Shown: positions 18,710-49,303 of the stretch, in pieces
How positions within the stretch are numbered: position 1 is the first letter of the stretch
How the letters are laid out: the number at the start of each line of letters is the position of its first letter
Source: Lunularia cruciata
Lineage: Eukaryota > Streptophyta > Marchantiopsida > Lunulariales > Lunulariaceae
Length of the DNA stretch: 64,000 nucleotides
NCBI GenBank assembly: GCA_948567375.1
Contig: OX419756.1
Coordinates: forward strand, 5,213,001-5,277,000
Reading direction: 5' to 3'
Notes under the pieces: generated by a model
Databases searched by the model: none
The model's input: the letters and a program-made list of their open reading frames with translations, nothing else
What the model was told of the DNA's origin: nothing
Position numbers and translations under genes: made by a program

Positions 18710-18711
18710 CG

Positions 18712-26429: not shown

Positions 26430-26432
26430 TTT

Positions 26433-26452: not shown

Positions 26453-26470
26453 TCTCTAGAAGGCAAGATA

Positions 26471-26641
26471 ATGTTCCGCGTCCAATTCTACATTAGGCAG
26501 AAGGAGGCTATGAGAGCTCACTTGGAGAGAACATTAGGAGAGGAGAGGGCTGAACTTATGTTAGAGAACCAAGATCCATTTGTATACCCTGTAGTTCATT
26601 ATGATGTCTTTGAGGTGATTTTGTACATCTTGTACACATGA
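26471..26641 (+). CDS. Short leader ORF, 56 residues, of family A
   Basis: The first ATG after the primer site opens a small ORF beginning MFRVQFYIRQKEAMRAHLE and ending with a tyrosine-rich tail. It is preserved in copy D (minus strand 56,111-55,941) with about ten changes and no stop. It is also recognisably related to two leader ORFs of family E (59,602 and 59,857): shared features are an F-x-[VI] start, YI or VV, MR or FR, a central G-[EA]-E and PVV-x-YD. Function unknown. It is short, charged, without signal peptide or membrane span. Confidence 0.65.
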   Translation: MFRVQFYIRQKEAMRAHLERTLGEERAELMLENQDPFVYPVVHYDVFEVILYILYT

Positions 26642-27763: not shown

Positions 27764-27998
27764 TGATGGAGATAATCTTTCAACTTATGGATAAACTATC
27801 CATGAGAGTTAGATTAATATGCACTCTAGGATTTGATGTTGCTATAGAAATCTTGGAGCAACCTGAACCTTTTGTGTTCCCTAGAGTGGATTATTCTCAG
27901 ATGGTGTTAGTCATGTATATACTCTATTAGTAATAGAGTGAGAGAAAAGAAAAGAGAAAAAAAAAATTAAGAGAAAAGAAAGATAGTGAGGGGTTAAG

Positions 27999-30900: not shown

Positions 30901-32825
30901 TACGCCAATTCTTGGGAATGGTTGGGTACTATAGGAGGTTCATCTTCTCATTTTCCAACAAGGCTTATGCATTGACCATCTACATGAAGAAGGGTGTAGA
31001 TTACATGGTGATTTTGGAAGACAAGGAGGCTCTCAAAGCTTTTGAGGAGCTCAAGCAATCCCTTGTTGTAGCTCCAATTCTTGCTAAACCTGATTGGAGT
31101 AAGCCTTTCATCCTCTACACTGATGCTTCTAATGTAGCTATAGGATGCACTCTTAGTCAATTAGACCAAGATGGGCATGATCATCCAATAGCTTATGCTA
31201 GTAGGCAGATGGTTTCAGCAGAGAAGAACTACTCTGTCACAGAGAGAGAAGGGTTGGCAGTGATCTTTGGTCTCAAGAAGTTTAGACACTACTTGATTGG
31301 AGGGAAAGCCACAATTGTCACGGATCACAAGGCTTTGAAGTACATCTTCAACAAGCCTAATGTTGAAGGGAGACTAGCAAGGTGGATGATACTCTTGTCT
31401 GAGTATGACTACACAATTGAGGATAGGCCAGGAAAGAAACATGCAAATGCTGATTTGTTATCTAGAGCCTATGATCATGATGGAGATGAGCCAGTAGATG
31501 ATTCCTTCCCGGATGAGGAGCTCATGACAATCTCAGTCACTCAAGAGATTCCAATGGAGTACAAGGAGATTGTGGATTTTGTGACAAGAGGTAACTATCC
31601 AGAAGGAATGCATGCTAGGGAGAGGAAGGCCCTTGCAGCAAGATCTAGACCTTACACAATGGTGGAGGATATTCTTTTTCACCAAGGAGCAGATGGTCTA
31701 CTTCGAAGAGCAGTGGGTAAGGAAGAGTCTATCCTACTCATAAAGGAGTTTCATGAAGGTTTAGTATGTGGAGGACACTTTGCAGGAAAGGTGACTGCTT
31801 TCAAGATTCTAGATGCAGGTTACCATTGGAGAGGGATTTTCAAGGATTGTCTTGATTATTGCAAAACTTGTCATGTTTGTCAAGCTTTTGCTAGAAAGTC
31901 TACATCCACTCCACCACTTAGATCAATTCCATTGCTAGGACCTTTTGAGAAGTGGGGAATTGATTTTGTAGGACCTCTCAATAGAACCCCAAGGAACAAT
32001 CGGTACATTGTGGTAGTTACTGATTACCTTACCAAGTGGGTTGAGGCTAGACCATTGAGGGACAAGAATGAAGATGAAGTGGGTAGATTTCTTTATGAAC
32101 GCATTATCACTAGGTTTGGATGCCCTTTGGAGTTGGTTTCTGATAGAGGAGGAGAGTTTACAGGAAGCATTACTACAGCCATGCTACGACATTTCTCTAT
32201 CACACATAGAGTAACTACATCCTATAAGCCAAATTCCAATGGCTTGGCAGAGAGAACCAATCAGACCTTGTGCATGATGTTGGCCAAAGATGCAGAAATG
32301 GAGGGGGCTAAACATCATTGGGACAAGAGGATTCATGCAGTTTTGTGGGAGTATAGGACAACCATGAAGACTTCCACTGGATATTCTCCATTCCAATTGG
32401 TGTATGGTATTGAGTCTACCTTACCTATTCACTTTGATCTTCCTACCTTCCAAAGCATTCATAGGAGATTGAAGAAAGCACAAGGAAGTGATGCAGGGAA
32501 GTCAAGGAAGGATCAACTCATGGAGTTGGAAGAGGCAAGAGCAGTTGCTATGGTTCGAGTGGAGCAAGCCCAAAGGAAACAAAAGGAGAGCTATGACAAG
32601 AGGCAAGGCAAGAAGAAGGTGGAGCCTTTCAAAGAAGGTGATTGGGTAATGTTGTTTGATTCCATTCGATTCAAGAGAGTGCAAAAGAAGTTTTTGCCTA
32701 AGTACTTTGGACCTTTCATAGTAGAGAAGGTGTGGGGCAATTACACCTATGATCTCAAGGAGTTGGGAGGAAGACACTTTGATAGGATTAACCATGATAA
32801 GTTGAAAATGTACCATAGAAGGTAG
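27999..32825 (+). CDS. Family A Gag-Pol polyprotein (1,608 residues)
   Basis: Intact single-ORF polyprotein of a Ty3/gypsy retrotransposon. The order is Gag with a helical core (about residues 1-200), zinc knuckle CFGCGGRGHIQRNC (about 282-295), a basic linker, aspartic protease with ALVDGGSALNAM (about 500; the Asp-Gly-Gly form), an acidic spacer, RT with FIDDFCVYG (about 890) as catalytic box, RNase H with LYTDASNVAIG (about 1,038), integrase HHCC (H...GGHFAGK...CKTCHVC, about 1,255-1,295), DDE core (GIDFVGPL, SDRGGEF, GLAERTN; about 1,320-1,416) and a GPF-type C-terminal module. No chromodomain. Gag and Pol share one frame with no stop between them. It would direct particle formation, reverse transcription and integration. 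Confidence 0.95.
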   Translation: MGKLPVFFGKDGEDVEAFVRDFKRACIGNNERRKNEWASLLPDFFEDAALTWYESEYQKRERREGEEESWETLTSALIENFLPDESYERLMSEVTFLKQGDGEKVRVYVERVEKLESRFRIVLRKGGDDVETTMIGIGAMLTKNFVGGLRPQIRSKVRYEKPSSKVEAIKIAIRMEESLEGDESDLVVKEVVHPPQGYKYGGTSDTLVTRVAPQVVVAPILAPPPKDPLQTITEQLADLKINVVQLWEKREVDQNVGRGPRSYGNYPYRGGQPANNFNDRNCFGCGGRGHIQRNCPNSTYHGGRGYEGANRGKEGGSETQVAPNPNKGKGIASIDVVESKYEKGECSNSKGLNLELLAQEKKRARFAEDVHSSQGFTSSKDTPMSTRSTRTSTPSTTKTPRKKLGMEDFLISKQQWNYNVLEDVGSHKANITVGQLIALNPTLRKELRGGLSSTRSKKKKKAKVPVSMGVVDAKPAPWEACEYASKIDVRVNGHNIKDALVDGGSALNAMSERLMKKLGMIPSRPSTFVVSMANKQQVRPVGVMDKVVVSVMGVQNLMTFQVLKDSSYDLLLGRPWLRAARTTDRWHKGYLRIGPSNHRVTVPVTNTTNTSHSDTPSSNYWESDSEEGASGVDTSMEEETSTEEDESESDSDVYPLCAMDFAPKPEVLKDPDKSPLTLEEVERRLSTLKYGPNVTKEEKVRFEEIFRKFIHVFAFSYKDLKEVTLEEHKIEVESHARPIRQKQRRISPPISLVVKEEIDKLKEAGFIFEVENSEWVSPIVIVKKKNGKLRVCVDYKKLNAVTKKDYYPLPFIDEILEEVAGHERYSFGDGYSGYNQIKIAPEHQQLTTFTTPWGTYAFKVMPFGLCNAPATFQRFMNKVFEPFIGKFVRDFIDDFCVYGSKEEHFEHLIKVLQRLDEANASLNPEKCIFGCEEGLLLGHIISKDGIAVDPEKVRKISDLPFPSSLTKLRQFLGMVGYYRRFIFSFSNKAYALTIYMKKGVDYMVILEDKEALKAFEELKQSLVVAPILAKPDWSKPFILYTDASNVAIGCTLSQLDQDGHDHPIAYASRQMVSAEKNYSVTEREGLAVIFGLKKFRHYLIGGKATIVTDHKALKYIFNKPNVEGRLARWMILLSEYDYTIEDRPGKKHANADLLSRAYDHDGDEPVDDSFPDEELMTISVTQEIPMEYKEIVDFVTRGNYPEGMHARERKALAARSRPYTMVEDILFHQGADGLLRRAVGKEESILLIKEFHEGLVCGGHFAGKVTAFKILDAGYHWRGIFKDCLDYCKTCHVCQAFARKSTSTPPLRSIPLLGPFEKWGIDFVGPLNRTPRNNRYIVVVTDYLTKWVEARPLRDKNEDEVGRFLYERIITRFGCPLELVSDRGGEFTGSITTAMLRHFSITHRVTTSYKPNSNGLAERTNQTLCMMLAKDAEMEGAKHHWDKRIHAVLWEYRTTMKTSTGYSPFQLVYGIESTLPIHFDLPTFQSIHRRLKKAQGSDAGKSRKDQLMELEEARAVAMVRVEQAQRKQKESYDKRQGKKKVEPFKEGDWVMLFDSIRFKRVQKKFLPKYFGPFIVEKVWGNYTYDLKELGGRHFDRINHDKLKMYHRR

Positions 32826-32860
32826 AGAGACCTTCACTTTGAGGACAAAGTGAAAACTTA

Positions 32861-32873
32861 GTCCGGGGGTAAA
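32861..32873 (+). promoter_or_regulatory. Polypurine tract of family A
   Basis: GTCCGGGGGTAAA lies directly before the 3' LTR. It is the expected primer for plus-strand synthesis. Confidence 0.75.
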
Positions 32874-33552
32874 TGTAACACCCATTTGTGCATGTGTGTG
32901 GTATTGTGATATTTAGCTTGGTATTACAAGTACTTAAGAGATATTATTTATATAGAGATAAAGGATGGTTCTATATTAGTCATGGTTAGCTAAAGTTAGT
33001 CATAGCTAAGATAGATGGGACCTTACTTTAGAGGAAGTAGAAAAGATGAGCACCACTATTTTGGATTTTAGTGTGTTGACTTGGTATTATTCCTAGGTGT
33101 TTGGCTTTGGGGAAAGAGTTGAGAACTCTTGGGCCCGCAAGCCTTTTTGTTTTGGATTCTTCTTTAGTCCAAGGATAGCCCATGTGAAGGAATCCTTGCT
33201 TTAGTGGTTGGGTCAAGATAAGGGGAATATGCCCATGTGAATGGATATTCCTTTCTACTTTTTGACTTTACTTGACTTTTAGTCTAGTAACTTGAGTTAC
33301 TACGGTAAATAGTAACTTTGGTACGTAACTATTTCACAAGTATATAAACAAGGGGTGAGGAGGTACTCAACATCCTTTCATTTGCAACTATCTCTCTCTC
33401 ATTGAGTTCTCTAGTGAGCAATGTCTTGAGTCTTGGAGTGTTAGCCTTGGAGGAGTATGATGGAGTTGGGGTTCCTTGCCTTCTTAGTCCATGGTGCGCT
33501 ACCATAATAGCCATCAGAGGTTCATCCTGAGTGAGAGACAGGCCGGCTCACA
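32874..33552 (+). repeat. 3' LTR of the intact family A element
   Basis: 679 bp. Compared with the 5' LTR it lacks 13 bases (ACCACATGCTTAG) and differs by eye at two positions. It ends GGCTCACA, followed by the GACC duplication at 33,553. Confidence 0.93.
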
Positions 33553-33922
33553 GACCAGGGCTGATCGATATGCCATGCCTACACCGGAGGAGATTTTTGA
33601 TGCGATTGGGCATGCAAAGGTCTTTAGTACTTTGGATCTTTGAGCGGGATATCATCAGTTGCCGATCAGGGAGGAAGATAAGTCCAAGATAGCATTTTGG
33701 GCTATTGATCCTCACGGCAAGGATGTGTTATATCAGTGGAGATTCTTACCATTTGGGTTGAAGAATGGTCATGCTGAGTTCCAGAGGGTCATGGATAGGA
33801 TCCTAGCTGGACTGGATTTTGCTCGGTGCTATATTGATGACATTTTGGTTTATAGCACTATTGTGGAGGAGCATGAGAGACAGTTGTTGGAGGTGTTTGA
33901 GAGGTTGAGATCTCATGGACTC
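33553..33922 (+). pseudogene. B1 reverse transcriptase, middle part
   Basis: The RT gene continues here from 25,737: FDAIGHAKVFSTLDL, then a TGA where B2 has CGA, then FWAIDPHGKDVLYQWRFLPFGL and the catalytic CYIDDILVYS. It is cut at 33,922 by the start of B2. The remaining RT, RNase H and integrase of B1 are not found separately. They appear to have merged with those of B2 by recombination. Confidence 0.9.
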
Positions 33923-34370
33923 TGTCACGCCATTTGTAGTTCCGCATCTAGATGCTCGGACACTGGAGTTCCAATGATGGTAGTTAGAGTTATTCTAGCT
34001 GTTTCTCAGGGACTACTTTCCGACGGTTAGATTTCGTGTTCGGGGTACTGACTTCACGGTGGGGCCCACCGTCACTTTGCACCGTTTGCACCGCCGAGTG
34101 TGCCGTCAGCGGGACCGTTAGGGTTTCAGGGCTAGCTCGAGTCCAGGGGGTATAGTTTTGAAGTGAGCTCCAGAGAGCTCACTTCTCTGATGTTGAGCCT
34201 TCGAGTTCCTGGCTATGGTGGACAGAGGCCGGCGAGCGTCACCTGGATTCTCTATGCTTGAGTGGGTGTGGCTTGACTGTAATCAGTGCCCAGTTGTTGG
34301 CGGTTTATAGAGTGACAGATCAAGTACTGATCTGAGTTGAGTTGAGTTGAGAGTGTTAAGCAATCTGATT
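33923..34370 (+). repeat. 5' terminal repeat (Y) of B2
   Basis: Nearly identical to 19,347-19,794, starting TGTCACGCC right after the B1 sequence CATGGACTC. This second, independent insertion shows that the left terminus of the family is the start of Y, not of X. Confidence 0.85.
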
Positions 34371-35658
34371 ACATCAGAGAAGTGAAGTCAGGGGGAAATC
34401 GGGTGCAGGAACGTTGAGTGTTGGTGGTATCTCCAAGCTCGGTGGATCGTGGTAGCTCAATTCAGGTTCTATGTTTCCCTAGTGTGCAGAAGCTCATGTA
34501 GTTGATGCAAATTTGGCAGTTAGGCGGACGGTGTGCGGAAGCGCTGGCCAAATTTTGAGCAAAGAAGGAGCAATTTTCGAGCAGTGTTGTGATTTTGAGC
34601 TCAAGAGGTGAAGGCATGACCAATTTGCTGCGAGTTGGGCTCAGAAAGTGAAATTGAAGGTGGAGTTGGAAAGCTCTTCTCATGAAATTGTGATTTGGAA
34701 AAACCCGTTTTGTCAATTTGGCTCGAGTGGAAAGTTAGCGGGGGATTTGGCGGACATCCATCTTTAGGGTTTACGTCAGATTTTACTTCAGATTTACGTG
34801 AGATTTTGGGCCAGAATTGGAGGAGTTTCGCTGTTTGGCCAGATTTGGAGAAGTTTCGCTAGTTTGGAGGAGTTTCACAGATTTGGAGAAGTTTCGCCAA
34901 TTTTGGAGGAGGTTTGAAGTGGCAACAAGAAAGGCCTCGAAGCATAGGGCTATGGGCTATGAAAGGCCTAGAAGGGCCAGAAGGGCCAGCAAGCCAGCTT
35001 GCTGGCGTGAGGCTAGCTAGTTTAGTGTAGATCTTGGTCATTGGTTGGCAAAATCTGCCTTTCTTGCTAGATTGTGCGCAACAGGGTTTGACCCCTAGAT
35101 CTCTTGTTCCTAGACTGGTGCCCTAGCCAACTGGTCCACCCTCACTTGTTGTCATAGTGACTGTGCCACTGTTATCTATACACATGTAGCTTTGGCTAGG
35201 AGAGGCAGTTTGATCCCATTCTTGGTGATCCTGGTAGCTTAGGACTTAGATACGAACTACTCTTATGTCAAATGCCAAATGGTGGCAGAGTCAGTCCCGT
35301 GTTGTGTTATGAGATGGAGGGTTTTCGTTTAGATTTCTTGTGATTGGATCCCCTCCATTCTCTGCTTCTTGTTTGTGCAGCACGTTTGTGTGAGGTGCCT
35401 TGACTTTTGAGCGTTGGTGCTCTGGTGTGCTCTCGGTGGTGAGGCTGGAGTGATGACCAGTCAGACTACCTTTGTTTCTCTCCGGTGAGGCAGAAAGTGA
35501 TGACCTACAGACCGTGAGAGTGCGTGTTATGATGGCAGGTTATAGGTTGCCCTTCCCCTAGTGTAGTTATCTCGGTTAGAGTTACATTAGTGGGTGGTGT
35601 CTAGTTGGTGTTGGCACGTGGTGGTGTTGGCACTTGGTAGGGCACTTGCGGTTACGAC
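34371..35658 (+). other. B2 leader, non-coding, with tRNA-like stretch
   Basis: Same as the B1 leader, except for a roughly 30-bp deletion after AAAGGCCTCGAAGC near 34,940 and a short duplication of GTTGGCAC-type sequence near 35,610-35,635. The tRNA-like stretch lies at 35,074-35,145 on the minus strand. Confidence 0.65.
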
Positions 35659-38295
35659 TTGCGGTTGCAGTTGGTGGTTTGGGTTTGCTGTTGCAGTTAC
35701 GTGGTCACGACGGAGTTCTTTGGAGATTCCAGAGGAGTTAGCCCTGCAGTACGTAGTGGGTTTACTCGGAGTGGTGCTCGGTATCAGCCTGTATCTCAGG
35801 TCCCAATGAGGGAGGAGATTGACTCTGAGTTGGAGTTCGACACAGGAGCTGATTCAGTTAAGAGTGCACTTGGTGTGTCCGCACCATTGTTGTGGGACAT
35901 GGACGAGATTTATGGGGCCTCCAAAGGCCCTAGGCATTACTCTAGTACAGTGGGTACTATTGAGTTGGATGACTTCATCCAGGAGTTTGATAGTTGGTGT
36001 GATCTGCAGCAGATGCGGAACCCGACTTTGTTCACACTCTTCATGGCATGGAAGGGGTTGTTTCAGCACTTGGAGGGTCCGCCGATGGACGACTACCATG
36101 AGTTCAGGAGAGCTCATTTGGAGGAGATTGAGTTATGGAGATAGTATTGGTCTCCACACTATGTCTCCATCACTTCAGGCTCGATGGCCAGGAGTAGATC
36201 GGCTGTACCTACGAGTTCTAGCTCGAGTAGTGTTGGTGGAGCTAGTGGAGGTGCACTAGTTGGAGATAGTGCTACTACGAGTGGAGGTACCGCTGCAGGA
36301 GGTGGTGTGGTACCGGGGTTTAACCCCATCGTTGAGTTCTTCCTATGTTTGAGGCAGAACTACCAGGGAGTGCGGACTGACAAGCTGAGGAGCTTGCAGG
36401 AGTTCCAGCGGAAGGCTGGAGAGAGCCTACGCAAGGCATACACTCGCATGAGGCGGCTGATCAGTTTCACTCAGGGAGTTACTGAGGCCCAGGCAGTCCA
36501 GTTTTGGTATGGGATACTGGACAAGGAGTTGCGATGTAGAGTTCGTGATGCTACGTTGTTGCAGGCTACTTCGCCCACTTTGGCAGTAGTCTTTGGTTTG
36601 GCTGAGCGTATTGAGCTCAACATGGTGGAGGAGAGAGTGGTGACAGCTGGATTTGGTAGAGAGACCTCATCCACGATTGTGACTTCTTCTAGAGTGCAGC
36701 AGAGTGCACCACGCCCAGTTGGTTTTCGAGGACAGGGTGGACAGCCCAGATCCTATGGAGCGAGTGGAGGGCCTAGTGGAGTTAGACCCTTACCCTCATT
36801 TTCGGGTCAGCAGTAGCCAATGAGTGGTGGTGTTGCTTGTTGGACTTGTGGTGGACCTCACCATAGGAGAGAGTGTACTCAGGGCAGCGGACCTGATACC
36901 TGTGGTACATCACAGCCAGCACAGAGGCAGTGTGAGCACTGCCATAGATTTGGTCATAGTAGTGACCGGTGTTTTGACCTACACCCGGAGTTACGGAGTG
37001 GTAGGGCTGCTATGACAGGTAGTAGAGGAGCTCCAGTTCATGGAGGACAAGGTGGTAGAGGTGGTGGTAGAGGATCTACACCTAGTAGGGGTGCAGTACC
37101 TGCCCTTACTTCTGACACAGCTATGGCTACTCGGATTGAGCAGTTGGAGCAGAGATTGGCTAGTATGGCTATTGCTCATAGGAGATCAGATTCAGGTGCT
37201 GAGGCTTCCACCTCATATGCTGGTGATAGAGATGCTTTGGACTTCATGTGCGGAGCAGCACAGGTGGATGCATCTGCAGCAGTGACTAGGAGTGCAGTAC
37301 GTGCTCCAGAGCCTAGAGGAGCATCAGTGGAGTTGGACCCACAGAGAGGAGAGGTTGGGAGATAGGTCAGACTTCCCCAGTCTTTCACGCTATCTGAGGC
37401 ATTGCAGACGACATCCATGGTTCCTAGACGTCCCAGTGCAGGTGTGGTAGGTGGTGATGGAGTACATGATGGACTACCTGCTAGTCAGCCACCTGCTACT
37501 ACACAGACTGAGTCTAGCATGATGTTGGGGGCGGCTCAGCTGATTATGCGGCATCCTTTATTTTCAGCCAGTGACATGTTTACATTGGGAGTTGACCCAG
37601 CCCCAGTATTTCGGTTGGCTGCCACGTTGTGTGAGAGTAGGGATGGTGCAGTTCCTACTACTAGAGCAGAGGTGGTTGGTAGTGGATCTGACTTGGTTGA
37701 GGAGCATGGGATCCATTCAGCGACCAGTGGTTTATGGCAGGCAGCAGCGGCTAGACTGGAGGAGTTGCCAGCTAGACCGGCCTTTGAGAGAGCGCGGTTT
37801 ACACCTGGTGTTGTCCTATTGGATAACCAGAGGGGGATCTTTCGTTTAGTGGGACCTTCAGGGAAGGTCTATACACCACAGAGAGTCTTGTTAGACTCTG
37901 GTGCGCAGCCCCTTATGTTGGGGAAGGCTGCAGTTGTTGGTCTGGAGTTACGGAAGACCGATGTGGAGAGGTGTCCATTTTAGATCCAGACATCTCTTGG
38001 TGGTGGTTCGACACAGTACATCACACGTGGAGAGCTTGTTGTCCAGGTTCAGCCTGGTCATCCGACTGATAGCTCGGTGGTGAGAGCTCAGGCTATTGCG
38101 ACGATAGCTGAGTCATATGATGTGCTAGTTGGAGGAGCAGTGTTATACCCTATGGGTTTTTGTAGTGACTATTGGGAGGAGACAGCCTCTTATAGACCTG
38201 GTTGGCAGTCTGGTGAGGGACGGGTATGTCACCTACCAGTACGCTTTAGTAGTGGCAGTCTTGGCTCACTACAGTCTGGGACCATGGCAGCATGA
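35659..38295 (+). pseudogene. B2 Gag and aspartic protease
   Basis: Same gene as 21,098-23,734. In-frame stops are TAG at 36,142, 36,814, 37,363 and 37,981, each a CAG in B1, and the shared TGA at 38,293. Zinc knuckles CWTCGGPHHRREC and CEHCHRFGHSSDRC lie at about 36,838-36,990, and the protease LLDSGAQ at 37,887. The N-terminal start is uncertain; the first in-frame ATG that I accept is 35,659, after the GC-rich leader end. Without the point mutations it would be about 878 codons up to the TGA. Confidence 0.88.
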
Positions 38296-39891
38296 GTTTT
38301 GGCTTTCAGCGGTGCAGTTACTTGGCCTGGTGACTTGTTGGAGGGGAACGCCCATGCAGAGGATACTCCAGTACCAGAGGAGATCACTCGGCTATGGAGT
38401 ACGAGTGGGATTGTTCCATCCACCTTGGATGTTCCATTGTGGAGTTCAGAGGAGGCATTGCAGCAGCATGCAGATCAGTTAGTGCAGCAGGCTTGGAGTG
38501 GAGCCTTCGTACCATCAGGGGATGAGTGTGAGGATGAGCCTCCAGAGGCGATTGCTTTGACACCTCTGGATACCACACTCATTGCTTGGCAGTACCCAGT
38601 AGAGGGGATATGCCTATTGGAGTTGTTTGGTGGGATCAGCACCGGACTAGCTACGGTGTTACAGGCGGGTATCCGAGTACAGAGGTACTTGTATGTAGAG
38701 AGAGATGAGACTGCTAGGCGAGTCTCTCTACATCATGTGGCACACTTGGCCTATCGGTATCCGGAGTTATTACCGATGTCAGCAGTCAGAGGTTACCAGA
38801 AGGCCTTACCAGGAGACATTTCCTTATTGGGGGCGCATGACCTAGAAAGACATGGGCCTATTCACTTGGTGATTTCTGGATGGCCATGTCAGGGACATAC
38901 ACGTGCGGGCCGCGGTTTGGGTCTTCAGGATCCTCGTTCTGGTGTGTTTTGGGAGATGTTACGGATACTACGACATCTCCAGGTTCATCAGTCTGTTTCT
39001 CCAGCTTACCTTTTGGAGAACGTTCCATTGATGGGTGATTCTCGCACTAGAGTGGTGGTGAGTACACATCAGGTCCATTCTTGGATGGGACCCGCTGTAT
39101 TGTTAGATGCAGCCAGAGTGGGATCACGGGCTCATCGTCTTCGTCTTTGGTGGACGAACCTTTTACCCAGAGAGGTTCTACAGCGTAGTTATGATGGGAT
39201 TCAACGACTAGACCACATTCTTGTTGATGATATCTTGGATGTTGGGCGTCAGTCTCAAACAGTGGTAGTGGCTGATAGGTCACCCATGGCAGTGGTGAAC
39301 ATAGTTGGACAGCCTAGAGCTGCATTTCCCACACTCATGAGTTTCCCAGGCTCTCATGCTTTTCGAGAGGGAGGACCTGGACTTGTTTGGGACTCACAGT
39401 TACAGCAGTTGGTGGAGCCCAATGCTGATGAGAGAGAGCGGGCGATGGGTTTTCGCACCGGTATTACCGCTGTTCCAGTAGTGTCAGAGGCATCTAGGCG
39501 TCAGGTGTTAGGTCAGGCTATGGACCTGAACTGTTTGACCTGGATTGTGAGCCTTGGTTTGGCAGAGCAGCGTAGGATGCGGTTGATAGGCATCACCACT
39601 CGGACACTTGTGAGCCCTGTGCCTATCGAGACGATTCAGGCACATGCTGGGGGCGATGGACCGAGTGGACATGGTATTCTTGGGACACATCCAGTAGCTA
39701 CTAGGGAGAGTGGTCTACTTGGAGTCCATCCACGTGAGCATGGGCTACTTGGATTACACCCTTGGTCCACATGGGATGCAGCCAGAGGACGTATGGAGCT
39801 TGCAGCCAGAGTGGAGGGAGTTTTTCACACAGAGGTTGGGACCTCTAGTGGTCGGGAGCATGACACCATTGCTCCCAAGGGCCCAGTGTAG
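38296..39891 (+). CDS. C5-cytosine DNA methyltransferase carried by retrotransposon B2
   Basis: The frame is open from the codon after the TGA at 38,293 to the TAG at 39,889, about 530 codons, in phase with Gag-protease before it and RT after it. Counting from the ATG-free start at 38,299, motif I is LLELFGGISTG (106-116), II VERDETARR (133-141), III GDI (172-174), IV SGWPCQGHTRAGRG (193-206) with catalytic Cys197, VI LLENVPLMG (238-246), VIII GSRAHRLRLWWTNL (275-288) and IX-X RAMGF ... RRQVLGQAMD (381-409). The motif order is the normal one, not permuted as in plant DRM enzymes, and ENV-x(n)-D-A-x-x-V-x-x-A-H-R resembles DNMT3. It would transfer a methyl group from SAM to DNA cytosine. A target-recognition segment of ordinary size lies between VIII and IX. 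All catalytic motifs look intact. No start codon is obvious, so it was probably made as part of a polyprotein. Confidence 0.9.
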   Translation, partial: VLAFSGAVTWPGDLLEGNAHAEDTPVPEEITRLWSTSGIVPSTLDVPLWSSEEALQQHADQLVQQAWSGAFVPSGDECEDEPPEAIALTPLDTTLIAWQYPVEGICLLELFGGISTGLATVLQAGIRVQRYLYVERDETARRVSLHHVAHLAYRYPELLPMSAVRGYQKALPGDISLLGAHDLERHGPIHLVISGWPCQGHTRAGRGLGLQDPRSGVFWEMLRILRHLQVHQSVSPAYLLENVPLMGDSRTRVVVSTHQVHSWMGPAVLLDAARVGSRAHRLRLWWTNLLPREVLQRSYDGIQRLDHILVDDILDVGRQSQTVVVADRSPMAVVNIVGQPRAAFPTLMSFPGSHAFREGGPGLVWDSQLQQLVEPNADERERAMGFRTGITAVPVVSEASRRQVLGQAMDLNCLTWIVSLGLAEQRRMRLIGITTRTLVSPVPIETIQAHAGGDGPSGHGILGTHPVATRESGLLGVHPREHGLLGLHPWSTWDAARGRMELAARVEGVFHTEVGTSSGREHDTIAPKGPV

Positions 39892-39897
39892 CAGCCA
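39889..39897 (+). promoter_or_regulatory. UAG CAG CCA, probable stop-codon readthrough site
   Basis: The in-frame TAG between methyltransferase and RT is followed by CAG CCA, which fits the CARYYA context of the tobamovirus-type leaky UAG. Frame and flanks are open on both sides. The same TAG CAG CCA stands at 25,327 in B1, and copy C has TAG CAG at the same place (about 44,991). Unlike the other stops it is not explained by a copy-specific mutation. Confidence 0.6.
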
Positions 39898-41385
39898 GTC
39901 AGTACGTCTTCCACTCCTACTACAGTTACAGAGGATACTTGGGAGCCAGATCTTGGACCCAAGCTTACTGGAGAGGAAAGACGGAGGGTTTGGAGGTTCT
40001 TGAGGAGTCACACGAGTTGTTTTGCCTTCAGTATGAAGGATTTGGGTGCTCTGAAGGGACCTGGTATACGGATTGAGCTGACTAGCGATACACCTGTTTT
40101 CCGACGTCCTTATCGATATAGTGAGATGGAGAGGACATTGATTCAGAGCCGGAGTAGTGACCTTTTTGAGGCTGGTTTGGTGGAGATTTCACATGGAGAG
40201 TATGCATCAGCGACAGTGATGCCAACCAAGAAGGATATGCATGGCAACTATACAGATAGGCGGATGTGTGGAGATTACCGTCCTATCAACCGACAGACCA
40301 GGGCTGATCGGTATGCCATGCCTACACCGGAGGAGATTTTTGATGCGATTGGGCATGCAAAGGTCTTCAGTACTTTGGATCTACGAGCGGGATATCATCA
40401 GTTGCCGATCAGGGAGGAGGATAAGTCCAAGACAACATTTTGGGCTATTGATCCTCACGGCAAGGATGTGTTATATCAGTGGAGGTTCTTACCATTTGGG
40501 TTGAGGAACGCTCCTGCTGAGTTCCAGAGGGTCATGGATAGGATCCTAGCTAGATTGGATTTTGCTCGGTGCTATATTGATGACATTTTGGTGTATAGCA
40601 CTACTGTGGAGGAGCATGAGTGACAGTTGTTGGAGGTGTTTGAGAGGTTGAGATCTCATGGACTCAAACTACATCCTGGGAAGTGTAGGTTCTTCCACGA
40701 GCAGGTTGAGTATTTGGGTCACACTATCTACCCCGGAGGACTTGGTGTCCAGCAGACCAAGGTGGAGGTTATTGCACGTGTTCCTCGGCCTTCGGATGTG
40801 AGCAGAGTGCGAGCATTCCTTGGGTTGGTGAACTTCTATCGCCGCTATGTTAGAGGATTTAGCGCCATTGCCAAGGCCTTGACAAAGCTGACCAAGCTTA
40901 CACAGGAGTGGTGTTGGGGAGATGAGCAGGAGAGAGCTTTTGTAGAGCTCAAGGAGAGGTTGACATCTGCTCCTATTTTGAGGAGACCGATCAGGGGACG
41001 ACCATTTCAGGTTCACACTGATTGGAGTATGTTGGGGCTTGGAGCGGTGCTCACCCAGCATGATGATGAGGAGAAGGAGTTTGTGGTGGCCTATGCTAGT
41101 CGCTCCAACAATTCAGCGGAGGTGAAGTATAGTTCATATGAGGGAGAGTGCTTGGCAGCAGTTTTGGCAGTAGCACATTTCCGATGTTACCTATTTGGTA
41201 ACCCCTTCACTCTCATCACTGATCATCAGCCGCTAAAGTGGTTGATGGAGTCCGACAAGCTTTCAGGGAAGCTTGCACGATGGGCTCTGATTTTACAGGA
41301 GTATGATTTCACGGTTGTTCACAGACCTGGAGTGGTGAACCGTGATGCAGATGGGTTGAGTAGAAACCTATGTCCCAGCCAGTAG
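39892..41385 (+). pseudogene. B2 reverse transcriptase and RNase H
   Basis: After the TAG the frame continues through a spacer into RT: RIELTSDTPVFRRPY, MCGDYRPINRQT, FSTLDLRAGYHQL, FLPFGLRNAPAEFQR and the catalytic CYIDDILVYS (about 40,573-40,602). A TGA at 40,621 replaces the AGA of B1. The thumb (VRAFLGLVNFYRRYVRGF) and RNase H follow (HTDWSMLGLGAVLTQ, YEGECLAAVLAV, LITDHQPLKWL). The frame ends with TAG at 41,383, probably a mutated CAG. Confidence 0.9.
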
Positions 41386-42705
41386 GATCAGACCGGAGCA
41401 CGTTGGCATGGTGAGACAGATGAGGAGATGGTGCTAGGTTGGCATACATCAGCCTTTCTATGTATATTTGCAGAGACATTGGTGGTATCTCTCTCACCGC
41501 ATACAGGAGGAGTTATTGAGGTCACAGATCCAGAGAGTGAAGATATTGGTACAGTTCAGCGAGACATTCATGATGATGTCTTAGTGATGAACTATCTTCG
41601 CACTGGTGTTGTGGGTGGCAAAGTTGGGGCCAAGGAGAGAGACCGTGTTCTTCAGCGAGCCAGACGGTTCAGATTGGAGGGTAGGCACCTTTTGCGTGTA
41701 TGGGAGGATGGTAGAGTGCGAGTAGTACCACTTCCATCACAGAGACCACAGTTGGTCCATCATGCTCATGAGGAGCTAGGACATTTTGGAGTAAAGCGTA
41801 CATATAGCTTACTCCAGAGTCATTATTGGTGGCGCGGTATGCAGACCGAGGTACAGCAGTTTGTTGCCAGATGTGTGGTTTGTGACCGAGTTAGAGCATC
41901 ATTCAATGCTCCTATGCCACAGTTACACCCATTACCTATCATGGGATTGGGTTACCGTTGGAGTTTGGACTTCGCCGGACCTTTACCGCTGACTGTGAGA
42001 CATCATCGGTATGTTTTGGTGATGGTGGAGCACTTCTCCAAGTGGATTGAGTTGGTGGCACTTCCTGACAAGTCTAGTGAAGGGACAGCTTACTCGTTCC
42101 TGGATCGAGTTCTTAGTCATTTTGGTGCACCAGCTGAGGTTTTGACTGATCAGGGTACAGAGTTCTTGGGAGAGTTTCAGGTCTTGTGTGACAAGGCTTT
42201 GATTGATCATTGTACTACATCTTGAGATCACCCTGAGGCAGATGGCTTAGCAGAGAGAGTGGTTCAGATGGTGAAGAGAGGATTGCGAAAGTATGGTTTG
42301 TAGAGAGGCCACTTGGGAGATTGAGATCTCCAGTTACCTTGGTTGGCCATGGGCTATCGGTTCAGCCGGCAAGCCTCCTTAGCATCCTTCTCTCCATACT
42401 TTCTACTCTATGGACGAGATCCAAATTTACTTACAGCCATTTGTCAAGATGCTACTGTAGTTTTGGACTTGGATGACCCTGATGTATGGATGAGCGCATG
42501 TTCTCAGCGGGCAGAGATCTTTCGGAGAGTGATGCTGATGGCCTTCGAGAACTTGGCGATTGCTCAGCATAGAGATACTTTACGCTATGCTACCATTTGA
42601 GGAGGAGGTTATAGACCCTCGATCCGTCGATTTCATCCAGGCGACTATGTATATCTACAGCAGACAACACCGACGACACTTGATGTTTCTACAGGCCGCA
42701 CTATC
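41386..42705 (+). pseudogene. B2 integrase
   Basis: The HHCC zinc domain (HHAHEELGHFGVKRTYSLL ... CVVCDRV, about 41,757-41,895) is followed by a DDE core: first Asp in WSLDFAGPL (about 41,962), second in LTDQGTEF (about 42,144), Glu in DGLAERVVQ (about 42,250). Stops in frame are TGA at 42,223, TAG at 42,301 (CAG in copy C), TGA at 42,322 (TGG in copy C) and TGA at 42,598. The C-terminal part (HPGDYVYLQ, then VLPSGVLVLEGRDG) looks like an SH3-type integrase tail. It would insert the cDNA into the chromosome. Confidence 0.88.
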
Positions 42706-43005
42706 TTGAGAGTGCGCGAGGTTTTGCCATCTGGAGTCCTTGTGTTAGAAGGACGTGATGGTGTTGTTTGGAAGGATCATGTGCGCAATTGTGCGCCATG
42801 CCACCTCCCAAACATTGATGGTACTATGGACCCAAGCTTGGCACTTGTACGTGCAGGCTTGAGGTGTATGTTATGTGGCTCTTCTGGTGGAGTTGCTACT
42901 ATGTTAGTGTGTGATAGTTGTTCGAGAGGATGGCATATGGCATGTATGACTCCTCCCCTCACGGTGGTTCCTCAGGGACAGTGGTTATGTCCTAGATGTA
43001 CTTGA
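42706..43005 (+). CDS. C-terminal PHD finger of the family B polyprotein
   Basis: The last 48 codons of the long frame form a textbook C4HC3 PHD finger: Cys-x2-Cys (CMLC), 11 residues, Cys-x2-Cys (CDSC), four residues, His-x2-Cys (HMAC), a PPL...P-x-G-x-W loop and a final Cys-x2-Cys (CPRC), then Thr and the stop TGA. All eight zinc ligands are present. It sits where many plant gypsy elements carry a chromodomain. PHD fingers read histone H3 tails, often by Lys4 state. Which state this one reads cannot be told from sequence. The interval starts at an in-frame Met in the integrase tail; the PHD proper is about 42,862-43,002. Confidence 0.88.
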   Translation: MRVREVLPSGVLVLEGRDGVVWKDHVRNCAPCHLPNIDGTMDPSLALVRAGLRCMLCGSSGGVATMLVCDSCSRGWHMACMTPPLTVVPQGQWLCPRCT

Positions 43006-43160
43006 CCTATAGCTAGTTCATTCTTTATATGGTATAGATTGCAGACAGGCGACTAACGATGGGGCTCCATAGCACCCGACCTCCTGATCTTTGCCCATTA
43101 GAGGGTATACCATATACTTAGAGTAGATGGCTATCTGGAGTTAGAGGGACCTAACCGCCA

Positions 43161-43174
43161 GCTAGGGGGGCGAT
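43161..43174 (+). promoter_or_regulatory. Candidate polypurine tract of family B
   Basis: GCTAGGGGGGCGAT stands directly before the first copy of repeat X, about 155 bp after the end of the polyprotein. Copy C has GCTAGGGGAGCAAT at 57,015-57,029. The position suggests plus-strand priming at the start of X. Confidence 0.55.
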
Positions 43175-43836
43175 TGTGGCACTTTAGAGTCTATGTATGA
43201 CTTATGTGTGAGTTGTGCTTTGATAGTGTATGATGTTGACAGTGATGTATGTTGTGTAGCGATGTATATACGCACGACAGCTATCACGCCATTTGTAGTT
43301 CCGCATCTAGATGCTCGGACACTGGAGTTCCAGTGATGGTAGTTAGAGTTATTCTAGCTGTTTCTCAGGGACTACTTTCCGACGGTTAGATTTCGTGTTC
43401 GGGGTACTGACTTCACGGTGGGGCCCACCGTCACTTTGCACCGTTTGCACCGTCGAGTGTGCCGTCAGCGGGACCGTTAGGGTTTCAGGGCTAGCTCGAG
43501 TCCAGGGGGTATAGTTTCGAAGTGAGCTCCAGAGAGCTCAATTCTCTGATGTTGAGCCTTCGAGTTCCTGGCTTTGGTGGACAGAGGCCGGCGAGCATCA
43601 CCTGGATTCTCTATGCTTGAGTGGGTGTGGCTTGACTGTAATCAGTGCCCAGTTGTTGGCGGTTTATAGAGTGACAGATCAAGTACTGATCTGAGTTGAG
43701 TTGAGTTGAGAGTGTTAAGCAATCTGATTATTGTGGCACTTTAGAGTCTATGTATGACTTATGTGTGAGTTGTGCTTTTATAGTGTATGATGTTGACAGC
43801 GATGTATGTTGTGTAGCAATGTATATACGCACGACA
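43175..43836 (+). repeat. 3' terminal block X-Y-X of family B
   Basis: Repeat X (105 bp, TGTGGCACTTTAG ... GCACGACA) occurs at 43,175-43,279 and again at 43,732-43,836, enclosing one Y (43,282-43,729). The first X and Y are joined by GC, giving GACA-GC-TATC, a near palindrome (GACAGCTGTC if the one changed base is ignored). The same X-GC-Y-X order is kept in copy C at 57,028-57,709. The element's outer end is the end of the second X, shown by the CTCT duplication. Confidence 0.8.
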
Positions 43837-44993
43837 CTCTCTACATCATGTGACACACTTGGTCATCAGTATCTGGAGTTATTACCAATGTCAACTGTCA
43901 AAGGTTACCAAAAGGCCCTACTAGCAGACATTTCCTTATTGGGGATGCATGACCTATAGAGATATGGGCCTATTCACTTGGTGATTTTTTGGATAGCCAT
44001 GTTAGGGACATACACGTGCAGGCCACAGTTTGGGTCTTTAAGATCCTTGTTCTGGTGTGTTTTGGGAGATGTTACAAATACTATGACATCTCTAGGTTCA
44101 TTAGTCCATTTCTCTAGCTTACCTTTTGGAGAACGTGCCTTTGATGGGTGATACTTGCACCTGAGTGGTGGTGAGTACACATCAGGTCCATTATTAGATG
44201 AGACCTGCTATCTTGTTAGATGTAGCCAAAGTGGGATCACGGGCTCATTGTCTTCGTCTTTGGTGGACGGACCTCTTACCTAGAGAGGTTTTATAGCGTG
44301 CTTATGATGGGATTCGATGACTTGACCACATCCTTGTTGATGACATCTTGGATGTTGGGCGTCAGTCTTATACGGTAGTAGTGGCTGATAGGTCACCTAT
44401 GGCAATGGTGAACCTAGTGGGATAGCCTAGAGCCGCATTTCCCACACTCATGAGTTTCCCAAGCTCTCATGCTTTTTTGAGAGGCAGGACCTGGACTTGT
44501 TTGGGACTCATAGTTACAGCAATTGGTGGAGCCCAACGCTGATGAGAGAGAGCGGGCAATGGGTTTTCACACCAATATTACCACTATTCCAATAGTGTTA
44601 GAGGTATCTTAGCGTCAGGTGTTAGGTCAAGCTATGGACCTAAACTGTTTGACTTGGATTGTGAGCCTTGGCTTGGCAGAGCAGCGTAGGATGCGCTTGA
44701 TAGGCACACTTGTGCGCCCTGTGCCAATCAAGATGAGTTAGGCATATGATGGGGGTGATGGACCGAGTGGACATGGTATTCTTGGGACACAACCAGTAGC
44801 TACTAGGGAGAGTGGTCTACTTGGAGTCCATCTAGGTGAGTGTGGGCTACTTGGATTACACCCTTGGTCCACTTGAGATGCAGCTAGAGGATGTGTAGAG
44901 CTTGCAACCAGAGTGGAGGGAGTTTTTCACACAAAGGTTGGGACCTCTAGTGGTCGGGGGCATGACACTATTGCTCCCAAGGGCCCAACGTAG
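43837..44993 (+). pseudogene. Copy C methyltransferase, distal part
   Basis: Continues the gene interrupted at 19,346. Recognisable pieces are the GYQKALLADISLLG stretch (motif III region), a damaged motif IV (the PCQ codons read as CCATGTTAG), LLENVPLMG-like and RLRLWWTDL-like blocks, and the ERERAMGF block near 44,545. It has many stops and small indels. The TAG CAG at about 44,991 matches the readthrough site of B1 and B2, but the next codon is GTA. Confidence 0.88.
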
Positions 44994-45984
44994 CAGGTAG
45001 TTAGTACGTCTTCCACTCCTATGACAGTTATAGAGGATACTTGGGAGCCAAATCTTGGACCCAAGGTTATTGGAGAGGAAAGATGGAGGGTTTGGAGGTT
45101 CTTGACAAGTCACACGAGTTGTTTTGCCTTCAGTATGAAGGATTTGGGTGCTCTGAAGGGACCTGGTATACGGATTGAGCTGACTAGCAATACACCAAAT
45201 TCCCAAAGTCCTTATCAATATAGTGGTATGGAGAGGACATTGATTCAGAGCCAGAGTAGTGACCTTTTTGAGGCTGGTTTGGTGGAGATTTCACATGGAG
45301 AGTATGCATCAACGACATTGATGCCAGCCAAGAAAGATATGCATGGCAACTATATAGGTAGGTGGATGTGTGGAGATTACCGTCCTATCAACCAATAGAC
45401 TAGGGCTGATTGGTATGCCATGCTTATAGTGGAGGAGATTTTTGATACGATTGGGCATGCAAAGGTCTTTAGTACTTTGGATCTTTCAATCAAGATTTCA
45501 TCAATTGCAGATCAAGGTGGAGGATAAGTCCAAGACAACATTCTGGGCTACTGATCGTCACGGCAAGGATGTGTTATATGAGTGGAGGTTCTTACCATTT
45601 GGGTTAGAGAATGCTCTTGTTGAGTTCTAGAGGGTCAGGGATAAGATCCTAGCTAGATTGGATTTTACTCGGGGCTTTATTGATGACATTTTGGTCTATA
45701 GCACTACTGTGGAGGAGCATGAGAGACAATTGTTGGAGATGTTTGAGAGGTTGAGATCTCATGGACTCAAATTACATCTTGGGAAGTGTAGGTTCTTCCA
45801 TGAGCAGGGTCACACTATCTACCCCGGAGGACTTGGTGTGTAGCAAACCAAGGTGGAGGCTACTGCACGTATTCCTTGGCCTATGGATGTAAGCAGAGTG
45901 TGCTCATTCCTTTGGTTGGCAAACTTCTATCACTACTATGTTAGAGGACTTAGTGCCATTGCCAAGGCCTTGACAAAGCTGACC
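44994..45984 (+). pseudogene. Copy C reverse transcriptase
   Basis: RT fragments parallel to B2: IRIELTSNT, MCGDYRPINQ, FWATDRHGKDVLYEWRFLPFGLENA and FIDDILVYS (about 45,675), then the thumb. Several stops and a deletion are present. It is interrupted at 45,984 by a family A solo LTR with duplicated GACC. Confidence 0.88.
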
Positions 45985-46675
45985 TGTGAGCTGGCCTGTC
46001 TCTCACTCAGGATGAACCTCTGATGGCTATTATGGTAGCGCACCATGGACTAAGAAGGCAAGGAACCCCAACTCCATCATACTCCTCCAAGGCTAACACT
46101 CCAAGACTCAAGACATTGCTCACTAGAGAACTCAATGAGAGAGATAGTTGCAAATGAAAGGATGATGAGTAGCTCCTCACCCCTTGTTTACATACTTGTG
46201 AAATAGTTACGTACCAAAGTTACTAATTACCATAATAACTCAAGTTACTAGACTAAAAGTCAAGTAAAGTCAAAAAGTAGAAAGGAATATCCATTCACAT
46301 GGACATATTCCCCTAAGCATGTGGTCTTATCTTGACCCAACCACTAAGTCAAGGATTCCTTCACATGGGCTATCCTTGGACTAAAGAAGAATCCAAAACA
46401 AAAAGGTTTGCGGGCCCAAGAGTTCTCAACTCTTTCCTCAAAGCCAAACACCTAGGAATAATACCAAGTCAACACACTAAAATCTAAAATAGTGGTGCTC
46501 ATCTTTTCTACTTCCTCTAAAGTAAGGTCCACTCTATCTTAGCTATGACTAACTTTAGCTAACCATGACTAATATAGAACCATCCTTTATCTCTATATAA
46601 ATAATATTCTCTTAAGTACTTGTAATACCAAGCTAAATATCACAATACCACACACATGCACAAATGGGTGTTACA
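45985..46675 (-). repeat. Solo LTR of family A in copy C
   Basis: A full 691-bp family A LTR in reverse orientation (TGTGAGC ... GTGTTACA on the plus strand), flanked by GACC on both sides (45,981-45,984 and 46,676-46,679). No internal element sequence remains, so an earlier full insertion was reduced by LTR-LTR recombination. Confidence 0.92.
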
Positions 46676-46679
46676 GACC

Positions 46680-48208
46680 AAGCTTACACAAGAGTGGTAT
46701 TGGGGAGATGAGCAAGAGATAACTTTTATAGAGCTCAAGGAGAGGTTAACATTTGCTCCTATTTTGAGGAAACCAATTAGAGAATGACCATTTCAGGTTC
46801 ATACTGATTGGAGTATGTTGGGGCTTGGAGCAGTGCTCACCCAACATGATGATGAGGGGAAGGAGTTTGTGGTGGCCTATGCTAGTCACTCCAACAATTC
46901 AACGGAGGCAAAGTAAAGTTTATATGAGGGAGAGTGCTTGGTAGCAGTTTGGGCAATAGCACATTTTTGATGTTATCTATTTGGTAACCCCTTCACTCTC
47001 ATCACTGATCATCAGCAGCTAAAGTGGTTGATGGAGTCCAACAAGCTTTTAGTGAAGCTTGCACGATGGGCTCTGATTTTACAAGAGTATGATTTCACGG
47101 TTGTTCATAGACTTGGAGTGGTGAACCGTGATGCATATGGGTTGAGTAGAAACCCATGTCCCAACCATCAAGATCAGATTGGAGCATGTTGGCATGGTGA
47201 GACAGATGAGGAGATGATGCCAAGTTGGCATGCATCTGCCTTCTTATGTACATTTTTTGAGGCTTTGGTGATATCTCTCTTAGCACACACAAGAGGAGTT
47301 ATTGAGGTCACAGATCCTGAGAGTGAAGATATTGGTATAGTTCAGCAAGACATTCATGATGATGTGTGAGTGATGGACTATCTTTGCATTGGTGCTATGG
47401 GTGGCACAGTTGGGGCCAAGGAGAGAGAGCATGTTCTTCAGCAAGCTAGACGGTTCAGATTGGAGGGCAAACATCTTTTGCGTGTATGGGAGGATGGTAG
47501 AGTGCGAGTAGTACCACTTCCATCTCAGAGACCACAGTTGGTTTGTCATGCTCATGAGGAGCTAGGACACTTTGGAGTAAAGTATACATATAGCTTACTC
47601 TAGAGTCATTATTGGTGGTGGGGTATGTAGACCAAGGTACAATAGTTTGTTGCCAGATGTGTTGTTTGTGACCAAGTTAGAGCATCATTCAATGCTCCTA
47701 TGTCACAATTACATCCATTACCTATCATGGGATTGGGTGACCGTTGGAGTTTGGACTTTGTTGGACCTTTACTGCTGACTGTGAGACATTATCAGTATGT
47801 TTTGGTGATGGTGGAGCACTTCTCTAACTGGATTGGGTTTTAGGCACTTCTTGACAAGTCTAGTGAAGGGACATCTTACTTGTTCTTGGATCAAGTTCTT
47901 AGTCATTTTGGTGCACCAACTGAGGTTTTGACTGATCAGGGTACAAAGTTCTTGGGGGAATTTTAGGTCTTGTGTGACAAGGCTTTGATTGATCATCGTA
48001 CTACATCCCAAGATCACCTAGAGGTAGATAGCTTAGCAAAGAAAGTGGTCCAGACGGTGAAGAGAGGATTGCAAAAGTATGGTTTGCAGAGAGGCCACTT
48101 GGGAGATTGGGATCTCCAGTTACCTTGGTTGGCCATGGGCTATCAGTTCTACTGGTAAGCTTCCTTAGCATCCTTCTCTCCTTACTTCCTACTCTATGGA
48201 CGAGATCC
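46680..48208 (+). pseudogene. Copy C RNase H and integrase
   Basis: Continues copy C: HTDWSMLGLGAVLTQ-like RNase H (46,800), LITDHQQLKWL (47,005), then the integrase zinc domain (CHAHEELGHFGVKYTYSLL, 47,546), the DDE core (LTDQGTKF, 47,930; Glu replaced in SLAKKVVQ) and the tail. It ends abruptly at 48,208 in ...CTATGGACGAGATCC, where the minus-strand element D begins. About 570 bp of copy C, including the PHD finger, are missing before it resumes at 56,844. Confidence 0.88.
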
Positions 48209-49303
48209 ACCTATCTTATATGATATATCTTCAACTTATCATGGTTAATCCTATCAAAGTGTCTTCCTCCCAACTCTTTGAGATCATAGGTGTAATTGCC
48301 CCACACCTTCTCCACTATGAAAGGTCCAAAGTACTTAGGCAAAAACTTCTTTTGCACTCTCTTGAATCGAATAGAATCAAACAACATTACCCAATCACCT
48401 TCTTCTTGCCTTGCATCTTGTCATAGCTCTCCTTTTGTTTCCAATGGGCTTGCTCCACTCAAACCATAGCAACTGCTCTTGCCTCTTCCAACTCCATGAG
48501 TTGATCCTTCATTGACTTCTTTGCATCACCTCCATGTGCTTTCTTCAATCTCCTATGAATGCTTTGGAAGGTAGAAAGATCAAAGTGAATAAGTAAGGTA
48601 GACTCAATACCATATACCAATTGAAATGGAGAATATTCGATGGAAGTCTTCATGGTTGTCCTATACTCCCACAAAACTGCATGAATCCTCTTGTCCCAAT
48701 GATGTTTAGCTCCCTCTATTTCTGCATCTTTGGCCAACATCATGCACAAGGTCTGATTGGTTCTCTCAGCCAAGCCATTGGAATTGGCTTATAGGATGTA
48801 GTTACTCTATGTGTGATAGAGAAATGTTGTAGCATGGCTGTGGTAATGCTTCTTGTAAACTCTCCTCCTCTATCAGAAACCAACTCCAAAGTGCATCCAA
48901 ACCTAGTGATAATGCATTCATAAAGAAATCTACCCACTTCATCTTCATTCTTTTCCCTCAATGGTCTAGCCTCAACCCACTTGGTAAGGTAATCAATAAC
49001 TACCACAATGTACTGATTGTTCCTTGGGGTTCTATTGAGAGGACCTACAAAATCAATTCCCCACTTCTCAAAAGGTCCTAGCAATGGAATTGATCTAAGT
49101 GGTGGAGTGGATGTAGACTTTCTAGCAAAAGCTTGACAAACATGACAAGTTTTGCCATTATCAAGACAATCCTTGAAAATCCTTCTCCAATGGTAACCTG
49201 CATCTAGAATCTTGAAAGCAATCATCTTTCCTACAAAGTGCAGTCCACATACTAAACCTTCATGAAACTCCTTTATGAGTAGGATAGACTCTTCCTTACC
49301 CAC
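48209..49303 (-). pseudogene. Copy D integrase
   Basis: HHCC zinc domain (GLHFVGKMIAFKILDAGYHW ... CKTCHVC), DDE core (GIDFVGPL, SDRGGEF, AERTNQ) and tail, much like the family A polyprotein. The frame is broken near 48,780 and in the C-terminal 200 bp. The start abuts the RNase H segment. Confidence 0.9.

Follow-up and report, generated by a model that had tools for sequence, protein, structure and literature searches.

A DNMT3-like cytosine methyltransferase in a multi-copy gypsy-type retrotransposon family of the liverwort Lunularia cruciata

The methyltransferase, its copies and its relatives

Three copies (B1, B2, and C) of a gypsy-type retrotransposon with a cytosine DNA methyltransferase (DNMT) lie in a 64,000-nucleotide stretch of the Lunularia cruciata genome (GCA_948567375.1, contig OX419756.1, positions 5,213,001 to 5,277,000, forward strand). 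We refer to this whole stretch as the window; all parts of the three copies are on its + strand. In B2, the DNMT is an open reading frame (ORF) of 531 codons (38296-39888). The original prediction of a C5-methyltransferase was confirmed by a match to PF00145 and by motifs I, IV, VI, VIII, and X in linear order. The predicted domain of 530 residues corresponds to this frame, but the catalytic core itself, with motifs I-X, is about residues 95-430 (38578-39585), as placed with PF00145, structures in the PDB, and an AF2 model. The C5-methyltransferase fold is genuine and belongs to the element: a further 80 matches in the same genome scored at 97-98% amino acid identity.

The enzyme was most similar to DNMT3. 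In profile searches, E values were ~1e-26 to 3e-26 for DNMT3, 1e-15 for DRM, and 8e-8 for DNMT2. DNMT3 was also the closest class by sequence and fold among the solved C5 enzymes, and the enzyme was unpermuted, without the circularly permuted motifs that characterize DRM. Given its linear motif order and the higher rank of DNMT3 over DRM in the profile search, we consider the enzyme DNMT3-like and not DRM, as had been proposed. Pfam found PF00145 alone in the frame, with no PWWP or ADD companion domain of the animal DNMT3 type; DNMT3 proteins of land plants, algae, and protists have also been reported without them (PMC12344493). DNMT1 and CMT chains were not among the 60 listed profile matches or the 50 listed structure entries, which is no proof of distance. 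In an alignment of 85 rows, including the window copy and reaching down to 33% identity, the catalytic Cys was kept in 78 of the 80 rows with a residue there, the Glu of ENV in 76/81, and the first Arg of RxR in 75/80.

We searched for other copies in the 566-Mb genome by two routes. A search with the DNMT gave 16,436 first-look candidates (not a copy count) and 81 scored matches including B2. The original prediction had called for a search for intact copies, and in 46 of the 81 scored rows the matched part is listed without a stop. From these we took 60 of the 80 further copies plus B2, a sample of 61 that is biased towards intact proteins. Independently of the protein, 39 copies besides B2 were listed by their non-coding 5' sequence, and 20 were examined; at least four copies are common to both samples. 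The DNMT was present in the fetched stretch of 18 of the 20 copies picked by the 5' end. Sixteen of the 20 span the end of the DNMT, and five of these had neither a stop nor a gap in the 531 codons. Based on these sequence comparisons, we conclude that the feature is a DNMT3-like C5-cytosine methyltransferase and a standard component of a multi-copy family of gypsy-type retrotransposons.

Relatives of the enzyme were found in bryophytes and green algae. We scored 7,998 candidates that shared the most words with the query and found 135 relatives, of which 120 are listed. An organism is named for 21 of these 120: 12 Marchantia, 3 Calypogeia, 3 Sphagnum, 1 Riccia, 1 Monoraphidium, and 1 bacterial metagenome-assembled genome (MAG). 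All 19 named from land plants are bryophytes, and the only protein relative found with the first 500 residues of a neighboring gypsy element (see below) was from Marchantia; a vascular-plant setting for the element is not supported. We built a DNMT tree of 86 rows from the window copy, 84 relatives, and a fragment of DNMT3A, excluding rows that covered <80% of the core. The window copy fell in a 17-row group (support 99/96; bootstrap not settled), and the nine other named rows of that group are all bryophytes. The DNMT3A fragment, the lone DNMT3 reference in the tree, is on a very long branch. In a nine-row tree of the reverse transcriptase (RT), the six elements that had matched in the DNMT search were set apart from Ty3 and two further sequences (100/99), which with so few rows only hints at one old lineage. 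Judged by these sequences, the family reaches bryophytes (liverworts and Sphagnum) and green algae.

One relative, designated L081, is a 9.3-kb contig (1-9285) of the cyanobacterial MAG AVDCRST_MAG81. The contig is a whole DNMT-gypsy element that closes on itself by a 127-base overlap. Because a cyanobacterial MAG contig holds a whole element of eukaryotic type, we read it as contamination; it is probably algal contamination or a collapsed repeat. Compared in pieces, B2 and L081 are 52% identical in the DNMT core, 31-41% in the protease, 60-69% in RT, RNase H (RH), and integrase (IN), and 63% in a PHD finger. In part of the family the DNMT is between RNase H and integrase, not between protease and RT: RNase H precedes the DNMT in P0074 and P0094 and, in part, in the gene model from Monoraphidium; an integrase zinc finger is downstream of the DNMT in P0072, P0078, P0085, and P0094 (marginal in P0110). 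Protein P0022, filed under Candidatus Obscuribacterales, belongs to the same retrotransposon family and is therefore probably contamination as well.

We considered and rejected viral and bacterial origins for the enzyme. Matches in viral contigs (the best 80 of at least 311) were only distant, with a best E of 6e-15 and 23-42% identity over part of the query, and look like ordinary phage or bacterial methyltransferases. A scan of genome contigs gave just L081 and four Streptomyces loci at 29-35%.

Structure of the elements in the window

The whole B2 copy (33923-43836, by self-BLAST and end inspection) is organized as A-coding-B-A-B. The 5' terminal repeat A (33923-34371, 449 bp) begins with TGTC and has 7 mismatches in 449 to the 3' A. 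The primer binding site of elements with long terminal repeats (LTRs) usually pairs with initiator Met tRNA, and CATCAGAG, directly after the 5' A repeat (34372-34385), resembles such a site in part only. From gag to the PHD finger there is a single frame interrupted by a TAG after the DNMT. The stop-broken gag/nucleocapsid region (35641-37365) is homologous, at 29-30%, to the gag portion of ORF1 in L081; its counterpart in B1 (21491-22000) gave a weak Retrotrans_gag match (E 0.0035, below the cut-off). The protease region (37366-38292) is homologous to residues 342-648 of L081 ORF1. The Pfam scan of the window pieces tried gave no match there; L081 ORF1 had a weak PF13650 match, below the cut-off, and in relatives P0020 and P0003 PF13650 precedes the DNMT.

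RT and RNase H (39892-41385; PF00078, PF17917, and PF17919) follow the DNMT and have in-frame stops at 40621 and 41383. They are followed by a stop-broken integrase (H2C2 and rve; 41386-42600) with a C4HC3 PHD finger at its C-terminus (42865-42999; PF00628, E 3.3e-11, with support from alignment and PHD matches in the PDB). A candidate polypurine tract (43162-43172), found by eye and laid out alike in L081, is directly 5' of the internal repeat B (43173-43279, 107 bp). The B-A junction GACAGCTATC (43276-43285) leads into the 3' A repeat (43282-43730) and then the terminal B repeat (43730-43836), whose final letters are GACA. Of the 13 stops in the gag-pol frame of B2 (35641-43005), one is the conserved TAG (39889) and one the terminal TGA (43003); because of the remaining 11 we regard B2 as a dead copy with one intact domain.

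We classified the element as gypsy-type by its pol domains. The order protease-RT-RH-IN, the DDE integrase, the target duplication, and the TG...CA ends are those of Ty3/gypsy elements, and the best solved match of L081 ORF2 was Ty3. DIRS elements have a tyrosine recombinase and no target duplication; here there is an rve integrase with 4-bp duplications. The ends are unequal (A at the 5' end and B-A-B at the 3' end), unlike the two equal flanking repeats of a standard LTR element, and we therefore did not file it as one. As in chromoviruses, there appears to be a chromatin reader on the integrase, but Pfam found no chromodomain at the integrase C-terminus in the B2 piece scanned or in L081 ORF2; the PHD finger is in its place. 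The finger is also present in L081, Marchantia protein P0079, and EukProt protein P0113, and its eight zinc ligands are invariant across the four aligned sequences. Its relatives in the PDB include CHD4, PHF21A, AIRE, KDM5, BAZ2, and UHRF1, which we take to be readers of the H3 tail.

Repeats in the DIRS-like order A-coding-B-A-B were combined with 4-bp target duplications in all seven readable cases. We inspected the ends of eight of the 20 copies chosen by 5' sequence. The 3' end was within the fetched stretch in six; the other two gave no 3'-end match within range. All six 3' ends had a B-A junction followed by A-B; in five, both B repeats lay within range, whereas in the sixth the first B began before the fetched stretch. 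All six copies had matching 4-bp flanks (CTGA, AAGG, GCAA, ATGT, AAGG, and ACTC). The exact palindrome GACAGCTGTC was at the B-A junction in four of the six and in L081. The split repeats suggest a circular intermediate that would be opened at the B-A palindrome.

The three copies in the window are nested, and only B2 has an intact methyltransferase; the prediction of three copies was correct to the extent that all are present. B1 consists of a first part (19347-25737, with the DNMT at 23735-25075; Pfam and self-comparison) and a continuation in RT that is truncated at B2 (33552-33922). C consists of a protease/DNMT part (18711-19346), a DNMT/RT part (43837-45984), an RNase H/integrase part (46676-48209), and a B-A-B 3' end (56844-57709), the last two by self-comparison. 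B1 and B2 are inserted jointly in C, with CTCT at both flanks (19343-19346 and 43837-43840). The order B1(part)-B2 would fit if B2 had inserted into B1 and 3' ends had then recombined. In the B1 methyltransferase, a Gly of motif I is replaced by Arg and a stop follows motif X; that of C has frameshifts and many stops. A TGA just 5' of the DNMT (38293 in B2 and 23732 in B1) is common to B1 and B2 and absent from C, so the common source of B1 and B2 may already have been broken.

Other elements surround and interrupt these copies. The neighboring gypsy element, of a second family, is nested within B1 (25738-33552); it has an open frame of 1611 amino acids (27990-32825) and LTRs that differ at 2 of 679 sites. 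Elsewhere in the window this family has left a single LTR (45985-46675) and an inverted copy (48210-56844). Traces of further retroelements are an RVP_2 protease match at 61212-61736 (within 61212-63935) and an inverted similarity of 59% that links 14676-16666 with 61871-63900. At 10125-12375 are the remains of a terpene synthase gene of microbial type, with weak Terpene_syn_C_2 matches, below the cut-off, in two exon-like frames; a protein search with the adjoining frame gave no relatives.

A conserved stop codon downstream of the methyltransferase

The DNMT is separated from RT by a stop codon in the context of a known readthrough signal. In tobamoviruses and other cases, type I readthrough is signaled by UAG-CARYYA (PMC5382211). 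A TAG followed by CARYYA is present after the DNMT: TAG CAG CCA in B1 and B2 (39889-39897 in B2) and TAG CAA TCA in L081. Among the 61 copies chosen by DNMT match, TAG was present in 61 and the CARYYA context in 59; both were present in 16/16 spanning copies chosen by 5' sequence. In L081, this TAG is the sole stop in 2,403 codons before the frame ends. Chance is an unlikely reason for the shared context because the DNMT cores of B2 and L081 differ at ~48% of residues. Murine leukemia virus also has an in-frame UAG that is read through, between gag and pol. The likeness to the tobamovirus type is one of motif; a difference is that a methyltransferase is here on the upstream side of the stop.

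We favor a model in which a DNMT3-like enzyme is made at the level of Gag, packaged, and methylates the element's own DNA, and we give this model a probability of roughly 0.6. Most ribosomes would stop at the TAG, making the enzyme at the level of Gag and protease, with RT, integrase, and the PHD finger at a lower level. The enzyme would be packaged with Gag in the particle, which is the simplest reading because the stop places the methyltransferase with Gag and protease. Once the cDNA is double-stranded, the packaged enzyme could methylate it, probably at CG as for DNMT3 enzymes, and the new copy would already bear, on arrival, the mark that the host itself uses. The PHD finger may direct the integrase towards nucleosomes whose H3 tails are of a certain kind. 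Self-methylation of cDNA was part of the original prediction, has already been proposed for the known cases (PMC5890265, discussion), and is our leading idea.

The same placement on the Gag side of the putative leaky stop would also suit a role other than DNA methylation, as an RNA methyltransferase or a structural part of Gag-protease, and an RNA substrate was raised for a LINE-type element by the authors of the 2018 study (PMC5890265). However, sequence, profile, and fold all place the enzyme nearest to DNMT3, the RNA enzyme DNMT2 scored far lower (8e-8 versus 3e-26), and the catalytic residues are kept. We consider such a role very improbable.

Methylation footprint, selection, and interpretation

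Copy C of the element has decayed in the way that CG and CHG methylation would lead one to expect, and so has an element that lacks the enzyme. In copy C, T was present where the B copies have C at 38/125 CG, 60/230 CHG, and 33/753 CHH sites. In the methyltransferase-free gypsy, decay was 27/96 at CG, 37/227 at CHG, and 135/2816 at CHH. The CG rates were about equal (p 0.77) and CHG was higher in C (p 0.012), in comparisons that differ in age. The proposal that the enzyme steers CG and CHG methylation of the host thus found no support, since this footprint is largely common to the methyltransferase-free neighbor.

Decay of this strength in copy C could also come from an enzyme that acts after integration. 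The integrase and its PHD finger would land in chromatin defined by histones, and the enzyme would mark the new copy and its surroundings, by which the element might limit its own harm or shut out related copies. A reader-type PHD domain with the PDB relatives named above and a DNMT3-like writer in one element are consistent with this. However, in the gypsy without a methyltransferase CG decay is about the same and CHG decay is also raised, if lower, and the DNMT is encoded with Gag upstream of the stop, apart from the integrase. We consider action after integration unlikely.

We compared nonsynonymous to synonymous changes (N:S) that were private to one copy with those shared between copies. 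In the sample of 16 copies, N:S in the whole DNMT ORF was 51:23 for private and 18:20 for shared variants (p 0.040), and the private ratio was near the 330:144 expected from all C>T/G>A changes in the core. For RT, the corresponding values were 43:23 and 4:14 (p 0.0025). The DNMT could be a passenger, captured once and now neutral and decaying: B1 and C have decayed, a frame free of stops and gaps is left in only 5 of the 16 spanning copies chosen by 5' sequence, and the test on the core was not significant (see below). We give this little credence, since the catalytic residues are retained across the 85 aligned rows and shared variants have the lower N:S over the whole ORF.

Several points weigh against methylation of the element's own DNA by a packaged enzyme. 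Motif IV reads PCQ where DNMT3A has PCN, with Gln in 78 of 80 aligned rows; for this reason we call the enzyme DNMT3-like and do not file it as DNMT3 proper. In the DNMT core of the 16 copies, N:S was 31:16 for private and 15:15 for shared variants (p 0.23), and in the biased sample of 61 no region reached p<0.05 (0.057 for the core, 0.24 for the N-terminal linker, 0.45 for the tail, and 0.40 for RT), so selection on the DNMT inside this genome is weakly supported. A footprint of the element's own enzyme had to be rejected, as the control gypsy without a methyltransferase was patterned alike and leaves no clear mark to assign. Copy C keeps the TAG, but its context is no longer CARYYA, and B2 itself is non-functional as an element. 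The catalytic domain of KnitGypsy-Dnmt3, an element of this kind, gave no methylation in yeast, which its authors considered inconclusive (PMC5890265). We infer from sequence that Gag-protease-DNMT is the major product and RT-RH-IN-PHD the readthrough product, as well as the packaging with Gag and the methylation step with its context and benefit.

Elements of this kind were already known. KnitGypsy-Dnmt3 of the charophyte alga Klebsormidium nitens is an LTR gypsy with DIRS-arranged repeats and a non-rearranged Dnmt3-class methyltransferase in its polyprotein (de Mendoza et al. 2018, PMC5890265, Fig. 4 legend), and compared by description our element has all of these features. Ours differs from that description in its PHD finger, UAG-CARYYA stop between DNMT and RT, 4-bp duplications, and non-charophyte host, although the K. 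nitens element may share the first three; "PHD" and "readthrough" are absent from the main text of PMC5890265. SymbioDIRS-Dnmt3 of dinoflagellates also has a Dnmt3 in Pol and A-coding-B-A-B repeats, and CG methylation by it was shown in yeast (PMC5890265), but it has a tyrosine recombinase where our element has a DDE integrase and target duplications. The DNMT3 genes of non-flowering plants (PMC6453930) are the nearest enzyme class but are host genes outside any element. With reference to the 2018 study, a 2025 article notes that streptophytes and dinoflagellates have retrotransposons with DNMT3 (PMC12344493). In the literature searched, with most subscription journals outside reach, we recognized no report of DNMT retrotransposons in land plants or of a PHD finger with the integrase of such elements. 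As far as searched, the land-plant hosts, the PHD finger, the leaky stop, and the insertion footprint are new.

Taken together, the data might describe an old green-lineage gypsy group in which a programmed leaky stop splits reader from writer, the writer is produced at Gag levels, packaged, and marks the element's DNA before insertion or as it occurs, the PHD finger picks the chromatin, and a circle opened at GACAGCTGTC is inserted by the DDE integrase, leaving DIRS-like repeats together with genuine target duplications. We regard this combined picture as tentative and, as a whole, doubtful. The combination of a DDE integrase with DIRS-like repeats implies an unexplained replication route. 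Transposons with DNA methylases were stated in 2019 to be absent from land plants (PMC6338049), which the relatives named Marchantia, Riccia, Calypogeia, and Sphagnum contradict at the level of protein records. The enzyme's place on the Gag side of the putative leaky stop favors a role in the particle. DNA methylation is a main weapon of plants against transposons, and here a multi-copy retrotransposon family owns components of its usual silencing machinery. Since laboratory culture is possible for Marchantia and some mosses, the question of why retrotransposons capture methyltransferases becomes testable in plants.
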